IMG/VR virus record: IMGVR_UViG_3300024352_000178 | Coordinates: 1-23,078 of that record | Length of the DNA stretch: 23,078 nucleotides | Direction: 5' to 3' (one strand) | Source: a virus | Part shown: positions 8,633 through 19,376 of the stretch, in pieces | How the letters are laid out: each line of letters begins with the position of its first letter | How positions within the stretch are numbered: the stretch's first letter is position 1 | Translations under genes and position numbers: made by a program | The notes under the pieces: generated by a model | The model's input: only the letters and a program-made list of their open reading frames with translations | What the model was told of the DNA's origin: nothing | Database searches by the model: none

Positions 8633-11512
8633 TTATACTTTTGTACCGTGTAAGAATTGAAAGCGTCTGCCGTCGGGAAGTTCAATAATGAGATGGTCGG
8701 TACCTTCATCACCTTTGAATGTATCGACAACTTTAGCTCCATTTTTCAGCCTCACTGGCGTACCAGATGGTGCTGCATAATCAATACCGAATGATGCACG
8801 TGAGCGGTGACGTGCTTCATCATCAGTAATTTTTGTGCCTTTAGAAAGAGATTTCCACTTACCATTTACATTAACTTCTACAAAGCTATCAACCTCAGTC
8901 GGTTGAATCTTGGAGAAACCAGTAGTAGTAATAGTACCTCTATCAACACGTTTCAAATCAAGGTGAGGACCCGTAGATCCATACCCAAGACTTCCGATCT
9001 TATAGACAACGGAAGGACGCATAGTTGCAGGATCACGCCAAGCAGAGCCGTAGCCGTACTTAGCAGCAGATTTGAGAACCTTGGGAAGATAATCCCTGTT
9101 CTCTTGAGATTTACCAATGCCGCCAAGACCACTGTTGTAGGCTTGAATAGCACGATTAACATCACCACCGGTAGCCGCAATCAAACCCTTAAGGTGTTTG
9201 GCTGCATAGTTAATGCTCGCTACAGGATCGTCATAGTTTACACCAGGATGATACTCTGGCATGATTTGAGCGATACCTCTAGCACCCGCACTAGACCGAG
9301 TTCTACCGTAAATAACATCATCACGCCAACTCGATTCAACTTCAAGAATACCAGTAAGGATAGCAGGATCAATGCCATTGGCCGCTGCAGCCTTCTGTAT
9401 GGTGCTTCCGAAGCCTTTAGGTACAACTGCTGGCTGGAAGCTTCCCATGCTGCTCAGAGCCCGTACAGAGCGGTTATACGTCGGTAGACGATTGAGCAGT
9501 GACTGCATCTGAGTGGACATGGTTGTATTAGCTATTTCCAAAGATTGAGGAACAGCTAACGGACGCATACCTGCAGCATCACGTTGACGATTGATAACTT
9601 CAAGACCGGTAATACCTAATTTAGATCCCCAGTATTGAGCCTCAAAAGGTATCTTCCAACCGGGTTCACCGTAACCATCTTCAATTGCAGTTAGTTCTGC
9701 AGCGTTGAAGATAAGACCAGGTTTCTTGTTAAGAGAAGCTTTACCTCCTCCAAGAAATGAATCGTTAATCTTCTTTAGCTTTCCATTGATAGCAGCAGAG
9801 GTTTTAGCGTTGCCAAGACTAAAGCTAGAGAAGTTACCATTTTTATCAATGGCATAACGACCACCAGCATCAAACTCAGCCATTACTTCAGTAACGGCTT
9901 GGTTAGCAGCTTGAGCAGCGTTTAGCTCTCCAGTTGCTACATACTCAGAAACCTTACGGTTAAACTTAGCTTGAAGCTCACCAATCACAAGAGTAGCCAT
10001 GCCACTAGCAGAACCATCTGGAGAAACCTTCACACGAGGATTAGTTTTAACGTGGTTCTCAATGGCTTTGAGTTGAGTTTTAAATTGACCAGTAGTAGAC
10101 CTAGAAGCTTCTTGTTTCTTAGCTGCATCCATCCACTTGGTTTGTGTTTTCCAAGGGGCTTGTGCAACCATCTCAGTAGTGAGAAGGTTCTGCTCAGCAA
10201 GCTTTTCAAACCTATCATTCAACTCTTGCTCAGCTTTAGCATCAATACCGTAAGTAGATTCTAGTTGTTTAAGATAAGAGCTTTCTTTGCCGTACTTATC
10301 AAAGTATTGTTGTTGTGCACCTTTGATGTTAGCCTCAGTGGCTTCATCAGGGTTATTACGGAAATACTCTTCTAGTTGTTGCTCACCTTGTTTGGCGAGC
10401 ATTTCACGGTCAGCTTCATCAGCAGCAAAGTTAGCACGTGCATTAGCAGCACGCTCTTTGTCAAAGGCTAGAAATTGAGTTTTCCAACGAGTACCGACAG
10501 CAGTTCCAGATTCAGGATCTACAGTATTTTTAATGTTGTTATAGCGTTCAAGCGATAATTCACCTGCTTTATCTAGGTTACCCAGATGCTTCCAGAACTC
10601 TGACCAAGCACCACGCAATCCAAGATGATTACCCCGTGCATCAACAGTCGCAGACATACGACGAACCCAAGCTAGTGGGTCGTTATCGACTAGCAGTTCT
10701 GCATCTGCAAGCTCACGGGTCTTAAACGATTCATTCTGAGCAAACTCAAAACGAGCTTCACCAATAACATCAGTCCTTGCTTTCCGCATAGACGGGAAAG
10801 CATGTTCATTAAGAAGAGTGGTGTTAACACCTACAAGACCATATTGTTTGTAGAACTCAGAGTTGAGTGCACGAACAGCTTGGGCGGTTCTGACTGGATC
10901 ACCTTTAGCTTCAGATGGAGTGAAAACAGTACCATCCTTCAAACGAATTTGAAGAGTGTTGTTGTTTTGAAGTTGATCTTCAAGCCAAGGTTTGTAAGCA
11001 TCACCAGCTTGCTTAGCCATTGCACGGGTGAACCCGATCTTTTCATAATGACCGAGTTTTTTGTACAGGTTAGCAACTTCAAATGGTTCGCCTTTAGCAA
11101 GTGCATCGTTAGCTGTGATTTGCATTGCTGCATCACCAAGCTTAGCACGGTTAAGGGTTTCAGTGTACTCTTGCCACTCTTCAAATGTAGCACCGGCTTC
11201 CAAGGCTTTATTCATGCCTCGTTCCATGCCAGCTTCGGCGTACATCTCTACACCAGCTTGAACGACTTTACCCAGGGTCTCAGAGAACTGAACCATCCGA
11301 GAACCTTCTTCAAGGTTTAAACGGTTAGCAAGATCTTGAAGTTTAGCTGTTTCGTTAAGTGCATCACCCTCAGCTTTGATGTTAGAAAGCTCAACTTGTT
11401 TGTTACGCTCAAGTTGGTCAGTCTGATCGGTTAATTGAAGAGGATTGAACCCTTGGCGTTCTATCGGGCTTTGATAGCCTTGTTGTAGTTGTAGTTCTTT
11501 AGATAGTGCCAT
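8633..11512 (-). CDS. internal core protein, gp15-like, with C-terminal transglycosylase and M23-like tail
   Basis: This 959-residue protein sits in the T7 gp15 position (747 residues) and is longer by about the size of a C-terminal addition. Residues 1-690 are mostly charged and helical, as expected for a core protein. Residues 700-822 form a soluble lytic transglycosylase (SLT) domain: EVESSW with Glu726 as likely catalytic acid, GARGIAQIMP, and AYNSG. These would cut peptidoglycan during genome entry. Residues 843-959 carry M23 endopeptidase-like pieces in permuted order: STGPHLDLK (His850, Asp852), then HRSRASFGIDYAAPSGTPV (His902, Asp911), then FLHG (His955). It is likely part of the ejected channel complex with the gp14- and gp16-like proteins. 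It starts three bases after the gp14-like stop. Confidence 0.88.
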   Translation of the reverse strand: MALSKELQLQQGYQSPIERQGFNPLQLTDQTDQLERNKQVELSNIKAEGDALNETAKLQDLANRLNLEEGSRMVQFSETLGKVVQAGVEMYAEAGMERGMNKALEAGATFEEWQEYTETLNRAKLGDAAMQITANDALAKGEPFEVANLYKKLGHYEKIGFTRAMAKQAGDAYKPWLEDQLQNNNTLQIRLKDGTVFTPSEAKGDPVRTAQAVRALNSEFYKQYGLVGVNTTLLNEHAFPSMRKARTDVIGEARFEFAQNESFKTRELADAELLVDNDPLAWVRRMSATVDARGNHLGLRGAWSEFWKHLGNLDKAGELSLERYNNIKNTVDPESGTAVGTRWKTQFLAFDKERAANARANFAADEADREMLAKQGEQQLEEYFRNNPDEATEANIKGAQQQYFDKYGKESSYLKQLESTYGIDAKAEQELNDRFEKLAEQNLLTTEMVAQAPWKTQTKWMDAAKKQEASRSTTGQFKTQLKAIENHVKTNPRVKVSPDGSASGMATLVIGELQAKFNRKVSEYVATGELNAAQAANQAVTEVMAEFDAGGRYAIDKNGNFSSFSLGNAKTSAAINGKLKKINDSFLGGGKASLNKKPGLIFNAAELTAIEDGYGEPGWKIPFEAQYWGSKLGITGLEVINRQRDAAGMRPLAVPQSLEIANTTMSTQMQSLLNRLPTYNRSVRALSSMGSFQPAVVPKGFGSTIQKAAAANGIDPAILTGILEVESSWRDDVIYGRTRSSAGARGIAQIMPEYHPGVNYDDPVASINYAAKHLKGLIAATGGDVNRAIQAYNSGLGGIGKSQENRDYLPKVLKSAAKYGYGSAWRDPATMRPSVVYKIGSLGYGSTGPHLDLKRVDRGTITTTGFSKIQPTEVDSFVEVNVNGKWKSLSKGTKITDDEARHRSRASFGIDYAAPSGTPVRLKNGAKVVDTFKGDEGTDHLIIELPDGRRFQFLHGTKV

Positions 11513-17671: not shown

Positions 17672-18754
17672 TCAGCCGATGACTGGAGCCACCAAGGCGA
17701 CTGGAGTTGTCTCAGCAGCAGCAAGGTCCAGAGGGAAGTTGTGAGCGTTTCTTTCGTGCATGACTTCAAAGCCGAGGTTGGCTTTGTTAAGAATGTCTGC
17801 CCAAGTATCCACAACATGTCCCTGGTTATCAATAAGGGACTGGTTAAAATTAAAGCCGTTAAGATTGAAAGCCATCGTAGACACGCCAAGAGCAGCGAAC
17901 CAGATACCAACAACAGGCCAAGCAGCCAGAAAAAAGTGAAGGCTGCGGCTATTGTTAAAGCTCGCATACTGGAAGATAAGACGCCCGAAGTAGCCATGTG
18001 CCGCTACGATGTTGTAAGTTTCTTCTTCTTGTCCAAACTTGTAACCATAATTCTGAGAGATTTCCTCAGTGGTTTCACGGATAAGAGAAGACGTGACAAG
18101 GCTACCGTGCATAGCACTAAACAAGCTACCCCCAAATACACCAGCAACTCCCAACATGTGGAAAGGATGCATGAGGATATTGTGTTCAGCTTGGAAGACC
18201 AGCATGTAATTAAACGTGCCGGAGATACCGAGAGGCATTGCATCGGAGAAAGATCCTTGACCGAAGGGGTAGATGAGGAACACTGCAGTAGCAGCTGCAA
18301 CCGGAGCAGAGTAAGCAACGAAGATCCAGGGACGCATCCCTAGTCGATAGCTAAGTTCCCACTCTCGTCCCATGTAAGCATAGATGCCAATGAGGAAGTG
18401 GAAGACTGTGAGTTGGAACGGACCCCCGTTGTAGAGCCATTCATCAAGTGAACCAGCTTCCCAAATTGGGTAGAAGTGTAGTCCGATGGCATTGCTGCTC
18501 GGAATGACGGCTCCCGATATGATGTTGTTTCCATAGAGAAGAGACCCAGATACAGGCTCGCGGATGCCATCAATGTCCGTAGGAGGAGCAGCAATGAAAG
18601 CCAGAATAAAGCAAGTAGCTGCTGCGAGTAAACAGGGAATCATTAGAACACCGAAGTGTCCCACATAAAGACGGTTGTTAGTGGATGTAATCCATCCAAG
18701 GTATTTATCCCAGATGTTTGAACTCTTCTGAGGAAGAGCGAGAGTTGCGTTCAT
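17672..18754 (-). CDS. psbA: photosystem II D1 protein
   Basis: D1 is the reaction-centre core subunit of photosystem II in the thylakoid; a phage copy replaces host D1 lost to photodamage and keeps electron flow going during infection. The 360 residues are complete and all key residues are present, at one above canonical numbering: Tyr162 (TyrZ), Asp171, Glu190, His191, His199, His216, Ser265, His273, His333, Glu334, Asp343 and Ala345. The last is the C-terminal processing site (NFPLDLA/A). The residue equivalent to 130 is Glu (GREWEL), the high-light D1 form. The loop [15 protein letters not shown] is typical of phage and cyanobacterial D1. No intron interrupts it. I chose the ATG at 18754 because it gives the normal length; an in-frame ATG at 18772 would add six residues. 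The first 50 bases overlap the endonuclease gene in another frame. Confidence 0.97.
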
Positions 18755-19073
18755 CGTAGTAATCGAAAACATCTAATGCCTTATGGGCACGACGGTCACC
18801 CAAATATGGAAGCATTAAATTTAGCAATCGAGTAACATCTTGTTTGTTCCCTACTTGCCATTTCCAAGCGTCTTTATTTTGATGAGGCCGACGCGGGCAA
18901 TACGTAATTTTGTTGTTTATACAATCAGCAAGACGAGCGAATTTAAGTAAAACATCGTGATCTGTACTGACTAACTGAAGGTAGCAATAACCTTTTTTCT
19001 GACTAATGGAGATAGACCCTTCGCCCTCAAAGAGTCCAGCCATCCATGCGGTATCCGCGATTGTAGTATTCAT
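18705..19073 (-). CDS. free-standing single-motif LAGLIDADG homing endonuclease
   Basis: A 122-residue protein with one LAGLIDADG motif at residues 10-21 ([12 protein letters not shown]); Glu18 occupies the catalytic acidic position. It is followed by the usual beta strands and helices ([19 protein letters not shown], then [20 protein letters not shown]) of the family. One motif implies it acts as a homodimer, like I-CreI, cutting a pseudo-palindromic DNA site. It is free-standing, not within an intron or intein. It lies seven bases downstream of the rlpA-like gene, and its last 17 codons ([16 protein letters not shown] plus stop) run into psbA in a different frame. The length is short for a LAGLIDADG monomer (about 160), so the C-terminal part may be trimmed. 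The likely role is spreading itself and possibly linked psbA between phages. Confidence 0.82.
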
Positions 19074-19079
19074 TTGAAG

Positions 19080-19376
19080 TTAGTTAAGACGGGTTACTTT
19101 TACCCTTCCAACTCCAGAGTTAGTGAGACCGATTGCATCAGCCGCACCTTTACTGAGATCTAAACCCCTATCATAAGCATAGGGACCGCGATCATTGACC
19201 CGAACAACGGCACACCCACGATAACAAACTTTTAGTTTAGTACCGAAGGGGAGTGTCTTGTGCGCTGCAGTAAGGCCGTTTTGATTGTATCGTTCACCGT
19301 TAGCGGTGAGGTTTCCGTGGAAGCCAGGACCATACCAACTGGTGATCACCGACAGAGTAGTTAGAATAGGAATCAT
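19080..19376 (-). CDS. RlpA-like double-psi beta-barrel protein
   Basis: The 98 residues are essentially one RlpA-type double-psi barrel: SWYGPGFHGNLTANGERYNQ (13-32), LTAAHKTLPFGTKLKV (35-50), VVRVNDRGPYAYDRGLDLSK (57-76), AADAIGL. His39 and Asp62 match the conserved pair needed for transglycosylase activity in bacterial RlpA. Bacterial RlpA is a lipoprotein that cuts naked (peptide-free) glycan strands; this version lacks a lipobox, a convincing signal peptide and the SPOR domain. If active it could help lysis or virion entry, but no holin or export signal is visible nearby. It follows a 141-base hairpin-containing spacer, so it may begin the rlpA-endonuclease-psbA unit. Two Cys (51, 55) are close together. 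Confidence 0.85.
   Translation of the reverse strand: MIPILTTLSVITSWYGPGFHGNLTANGERYNQNGLTAAHKTLPFGTKLKVCYRGCAVVRVNDRGPYAYDRGLDLSKGAADAIGLTNSGVGRVKVTRLN

Follow-up and report, generated by a model that had tools for sequence, protein, structure and literature searches.

The question raised by this locus is which internal virion protein of a T7-like cyanopodovirus carries the peptidoglycan-cutting functions, and what kind of domain closes that protein. In T7, the wall is opened at ejection by the transglycosylase of gp16, and the tunnel through the periplasm is made by gp15; PMC8954989, where this is described, also reports that the gp15-like protein of K1E/K1-5 has lysozyme activity, the muralytic domain having moved from gp16 to gp15, and PMC11440229 describes a lysozyme-like domain on the OEP of PhiM1. 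Such a relocation is already known in kind. The window, i.e. the whole stretch of DNA that was analysed, is a virus record of 23,078 bases that represents a fragment of a T7-like cyanopodovirus, with the virion operon on the minus strand (Table 1). The gp15-like gene is flanked by the gp14-like and gp16-like genes, an order also found in P60, S-CBP1 and DSL-LC07. Its product matches PHROG 24152 over residues 74-953 (E=8e-40), a family whose function entry is "unknown", and the gp14-like protein matches PHROG 29086, also of unknown function (E=1e-5); in a phmmer search of the PDB for homology to T7 gp15, no gp15 chain was matched. Within the 959-residue ORF, the motifs of interest start at positions 724 (EVESSW), 743 (GARGIAQIMP), 791 (AYNSG), 846 (STGPHLD), 909 (GIDYAAPSGTPV) and 954 (LHGTKV); these places, as well as the numbering of His850, Asp852, His902, Asp911 and His955, had been given correctly in the initial annotation.

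Table 1. Positions in the window of the internal virion genes and of the domains and residues of the gp15-like protein.
Feature	Position	Strand	Basis
gp16-like internal virion protein, 1294 aa	4746..8630	-	PHROG 6651 "internal virion protein", E=0
gp15-like internal virion (ejection) protein, 959 aa, with a putative wall-cutting cassette at the C-terminus	8633..11512	-	ORF; PHROG 24152
gp14-like small internal virion protein, 229 aa	11516..12205	-	ORF and gene order (by position)
SLT lytic transglycosylase domain, residues 704-806	9095..9403	-	Pfam PF01464
Putative circularly permuted M23-type domain, residues 832-959 (last 128)	8636..9019	-	Profile rotation; AlphaFold; 42-sequence alignment
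STGPHLD stretch, residues 847-852 (His850, Asp852), corresponding to the M23 HxH strand	8957..8974	-	Invariant in 42 aligned tails
His902, candidate substitute for the lost HxGxD histidine	8807..8809	-	Invariant; role inferred
GIDYAAPSGTPV, residues 909-920, with Asp911, corresponding to the M23 HxGxD strand	8753..8788	-	phmmer 5kqb, 3slu; Pfam M23
LHG, residues 954-956, with His955, corresponding to the M23 (Y)AHL strand	8645..8653	-	Invariant; rotated-model match ends there

An SLT lytic transglycosylase domain had been proposed on the gp15-like protein, with none on the gp16-like one, and this placement is borne out: PF01464 is detected in the former with E=4.4e-16 and 58.9 bits against a cut-off of 21.3, the motifs that mark members of the family are present (ES at 726, GIAQIMP at 746, AYN at 791), and Glu726 of the ES motif is, by analogy, likely the catalytic residue. 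A second SLT domain on the gp16-like protein was looked for and was not seen; that sequence gives no match to peptidoglycan hydrolases (SLT, M23 or other) in Pfam, PHROGs and NCBIfam, and Pfam shows no muralytic domain in its P60, DSL-LC07 and S-CBP1 counterparts. T7 gp15 is 747 residues long, and the window protein exceeds it by about 212 residues, vs about 260 for SLT and tail together, so that the equality between extra length and added module put forward earlier is only approximate. The gp15-like protein of the window resembles T7 gp16, the gp15-like protein of K1E/K1-5 and the PhiM1 OEP in having a muralytic domain on an ejection protein, although in T7 this domain stays on gp16, whereas here it is on the gp15-like protein; moreover, a putative M23-type partner, present in the window, is not mentioned for T7, K1E/K1-5 or PhiM1 in the available parts of PMC8954989 and PMC11440229.

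This partner is found in the tail that follows the SLT domain. The M23 enzymes, such as lysostaphin, LytM and MepM, are among the best-studied families of peptidoglycan hydrolases, and their canonical elements are arranged in the order HxGxD, (Y)AHL and HxH. In the tail the order is instead HxH, GxD and AHL: the HxH strand now opens the domain and the (Y)AHL strand closes it. The tail is related to M23 by sequence. Positions 4-51 of the Pfam M23 profile align to residues 908-955 of the gp15-like protein, and a phmmer search of the PDB with the tail retrieves the M23 enzymes 5kqb (E=3e-6) and 3slu, with the segments swapped, since GIDYAAP and what follows pair with an early stretch of the enzyme, and STGPHL pairs with a late one. 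The tail alone scores 17.6 bits with PF01551, against a gathering cut-off of 28.7, which is not reached, and the same profile matches 10 of 12 relatives (best E 4e-4). N-terminal halves scanned by themselves gave no M23 match in Pfam, their motif being too short to pass the filters of HMMER. Compared with the M23/LytM enzymes (PF01551; LytM, lysostaphin, MepM, phage M23), the same elements STGPHL, GxD...AAPxGTPV and AHL are present, but their order is permuted, two ligand positions are substituted (Ser907 and Asp852) and the Pfam cut-off is missed; on these three counts the tail is not a plain member of the family.

The earlier observation that M23 pieces stand in the wrong order was confirmed by rotation of the profile. 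Thirteen canonical domains (E. coli MepM together with phage and plasmid enzymes) were aligned, the alignment columns were rotated and the profile was rebuilt at every rotation. The window tail scores 17.7 bits with the unrotated profile vs 25.1 bits with the one rotated just past the (Y)AHL strand, a gain of 7.4 bits; the rotated profile gives one collinear match, the unrotated one two pieces in reversed order, and none of 60 shuffled tails scores above 3.3 bits, whatever the rotation. All the 42 related tails that were aligned score best at rotation columns 99-105, with a gain at column 102 of 3 to 11 bits (only 3 bits for P60); conversely, the canonical-order sister tails peak at columns 0-18 in nine cases out of nine and drop by 22-31 bits at column 102. 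When blocks were re-ordered at random (n=60), the best arrangement was equivalent to the same rotation after (Y)AHL. The whole gp15-like protein matches the rotated profile with E=3.5e-7 and 19.1 bits over positions 12-121 of 124, and single collinear matches are also obtained for the cyanomyovirus S-TIM54 (63.2 bits) and for the tape-measure proteins of Acinetobacter (61.2 bits) and Moraxella (57.0 bits) phages; with the unrotated profile these three proteins and that of the window all give two matches, the late part before the early one. The search with permuted M23 models suggested at the outset shows that the tail prefers the rotated profile, as do its 42 aligned relatives. At the sequence level, the identification of the last 128 residues as a circularly permuted M23/LytM-type domain is supported.

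The AlphaFold2 model of the tail, based on the alignment of 42 tails, is a single compact and confident domain (pLDDT 91.2, pTM 0.84). Foldseek against the PDB and VIA-align gave no M23 enzyme among the matches listed for this model, both aligners following chain order; Foldseek against BFVD gave relatives only (P60, S-TIM5, an uncultured tape-measure protein and one further protein). Lectins, in the top VIA rows (Z 4.0, rmsd 3.8, 83 residues), were treated as noise. The missing M23 matches would agree with a tail unrelated to M23, a small beta fold whose short STGPHL, GID and LHG motifs arose by convergence; they are also what is expected of a permutation, since the aligners keep chain order, and by themselves they are no positive proof of it. 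As a control, the canonical-order tail of the sister phage L147 was predicted (pLDDT 88.8): the fold search ranks the cyanophage A4 pre-ejectosome protein 9k2v first (E=8e-6), followed by many M23 enzymes at E ~1e-5, and the fold alignment gives lysostaphin at Z 12.9 (rmsd 2.6, 114 residues) and 9k2v at Z 10.3; thus, the pipeline recognises M23 when the order is canonical. The A4 internal protein has, as in the window, an M23-like domain within an ejection protein; however, it matches the canonical-order sister tail and is absent from the listed matches of the permuted one. Given this control, the one rotation optimum common to 42 sequences, the opposite behaviour of the nine canonical-order tails and the 57-63 bits of the S-TIM54, Acinetobacter and Moraxella domains, an unrelated fold appears very improbable.

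Tandem duplication is a common route to circular permutation, and fragments of two broken tandem M23 domains, or an assembly artefact, could therefore resemble the tail. However, the order is uninterrupted in all the 59 distinct tails collected (58 complete and one ending at a contig edge), whose sources are numerous metagenomes and three isolates with known sequence; the model is one compact domain, and no extra M23 half is found on either side of it in the gp15-like protein. We regard such an origin as scarcely credible.

If the tail is a permuted M23-type domain, its active site is also modified. In LytM the zinc ligands are His210, Asp214 and His293, and the catalytic residues are His260 and His291; the first canonical motif is H-x-G-x-D, with the His four residues ahead of the Asp. 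Because of this spacing, the residue that replaces the His is Ser907 and not the adjacent Phe908, to which the initial annotation (FGID) had pointed, although the replacement itself stands. In all the aligned tails Ser907 is found in place of this His, with Asp911 kept, and in the HxH motif the first histidine, His850, is kept and the second is replaced by Asp852; two of the three canonical zinc ligands are thus changed. His955 of LHG, on the strand where M23 enzymes have a catalytic histidine, is invariant. His850, Asp852, His902, Asp911 and His955 are present in 58/58 distinct tails of full length, with identity as low as about 41%. His902 may take over from the lost HxGxD histidine, and the tail may possess new metal ligands.

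The two substitutions, His to Ser907 and His to Asp852, are what would be expected if the permuted domain had lost catalysis and served as a peptidoglycan-binding anchor or structural element, the SLT domain doing all the cutting. Degenerate LytM domains are carried by EnvC and NlpD, and in this lineage activity could plausibly have been lost, since the canonical-order M23-like gp15 tails of sister phages (L147:5537-5962, L139, L166 and L260-L266) are without the HxGxD histidine and display SID where HLH is expected. On the other side, five residues kept in every complete tail, including both catalytic-type histidines, are unexpected in a pure binding domain; of the earlier alternatives "permuted or degenerate", the first is upheld by the rotation test and the second is disfavoured by this conservation. 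The relatives form a series: S-TIM54 has the full M23 residue set (HNGID, AHL, PHAH) in permuted order, and HxGxD is intact in the Acinetobacter and Moraxella domains, although they too show HLD, so that, unlike the window tail, all three keep the HxGxD histidine and S-TIM54 the HxH motif as well. As the sites run from complete to modified and the modified form is strictly conserved, the cyanopodovirus tail is more likely to be an active enzyme, whose altered and shifted metal site still works, than a decayed one; loss of catalysis is considered unlikely. The change of the last ligand from His to Asp is common to the canonical-order sister tails and the permuted tails.

The reading that we consider probable is that SLT and permuted M23-type endopeptidase form a two-blade ejection cassette, which takes up the last ~260 residues of the gp15-like protein. 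The SLT domain would cut the glycan strands and the permuted metalloendopeptidase the peptide cross-links; the cassette would be packaged in the capsid, ejected together with the gp14/15/16-like proteins and open a local hole in the peptidoglycan, where the trans-periplasmic DNA channel would form, both kinds of bond of the mesh being cut where the channel assembles. This mechanism is proposed because a glycan cutter and the permuted domain are recurrently paired. Along the permuted domain, the chain would start after the old (Y)AHL strand and run through HxH (STGPHLD), a linker between the former C- and N-termini, and HxGxD (GIDYAAPSGTPV) to AHL (LHG). Asp852, Asp911 and His902 probably make up the rebuilt metal site, and His850 and His955 would be the catalytic histidines. 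The SLT domain, the conserved permuted order and the invariant residues are observed; for the tail, we infer fold identity, metal binding, activity, timing and role at ejection.

Comparison with sister phages indicates that the gp15 C-terminal cassette is interchangeable, and that it is preceded by a shared linker, roughly KYGYGxAWxDPxxMR. At the place of the permuted tail, sister phages have canonical M23-like or M15-like tails: in L138 and L147, SLT domains that are almost the same are followed by different tails, one M15-like and the other canonical-order M23-like (L147; Pfam M23, E=1.3e-10). The cyanopodovirus gp15-like proteins P60 gp33, S-CBP1_0035 and DSL-LC07 WJZ48569 carry the same permuted tail at 40-46% identity and at the same gene position, but the preceding domain is Phage_lysozyme2 (P60, a sub-threshold match) or Glucosaminidase (S-CBP1 and DSL-LC07), whereas SLT is found in the window clade and in other lineages. 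Ahead of the permuted tail, L045 and L050 have a lysozyme-looking stretch with no Pfam match, and L073 and L081 no recognised hydrolase. A relative (L022/L048) has the same permuted tail and a clearly different SLT stretch (VGATGIAQFMP...), which suggests that the SLT domain is exchanged separately from the tail. Such an interchangeable cassette offers a clean system for studying how phages fit wall-cutting chemistry to the host.

In the M15-like gp15 tails (L138, L141, L142, L148 and L164), NYHDHIAF precedes NHGKGLAIDI, and in PDB 9flh HGKGLAID comes first and NHYDHVH last; judging from these two short motifs, the M15-like tail may represent another case of a zinc-peptidase-like domain that is circularly permuted, at the same cassette position.

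One viral scan for relatives of the tail gave 168 confirmed stretches, from which 79 loci were kept. S-TIM54 and the tape measures of Acinetobacter and Moraxella phages contain permuted relatives with the same cut point; their carriers are tape measures or other virion proteins, whereas in the window it is an ejection protein. These distant domains, aligned directly, are too divergent for use as search queries, and an IMG/VR search with the S-TIM54 domain returned only ordinary-order M23s. In cellular genomes, two GTDB scans confirmed no permuted relative; the three matches of one scan cover only 22-25 residues around STGxHL and were not accepted as such. L064 also gave weak matches in Thermus P23-45, Mastigocladus CHP58 and Arthrobacter MargaretKali, but these are canonical M23s. 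The tape-measure families PHROG 3519 and 1506 (L112 and L113, Acinetobacter-type phages) have a full-length permuted M23-type domain with no peptidase annotation.

We know of no natural permuted form of M23, and no report of a circularly permuted M23/LytM domain was found in the open-access papers searched. In the wall-hydrolase review PMC6403190, the sole mention of "circularly permuted" concerns NlpC/P60. The canonical profile misses or half-detects the permuted form, and wall-cutting domains in many virion proteins therefore go unannotated. The chances are roughly even that permuted M23 peptidases are widespread, unrecognised virion wall-cutters of Gram-negative and cyanobacterial phages, with a rebuilt Asp852/His902/Asp911 site in cyanopodoviruses. 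The contrast between S-TIM54, with complete residues, and the shifted cyanopodovirus form allows a direct test of how a metal site evolves once its domain has been permuted.

Two further regions of the window deserve mention. A psbA-like ORF of 366 aa lies in the region 17672-19073 on the minus strand, and its start is overlapped by a LAGLIDADG-like ORF at 18705-19073 (Pfam E=2e-6), as if a homing endonuclease adjoined the photosystem gene. Beside psbA, at 19080-19376 on the minus strand, an ORF of 98 aa codes for an RlpA-like double-psi beta-barrel (Pfam DPBB_1, E=1e-22), possibly a separate peptidoglycan enzyme.
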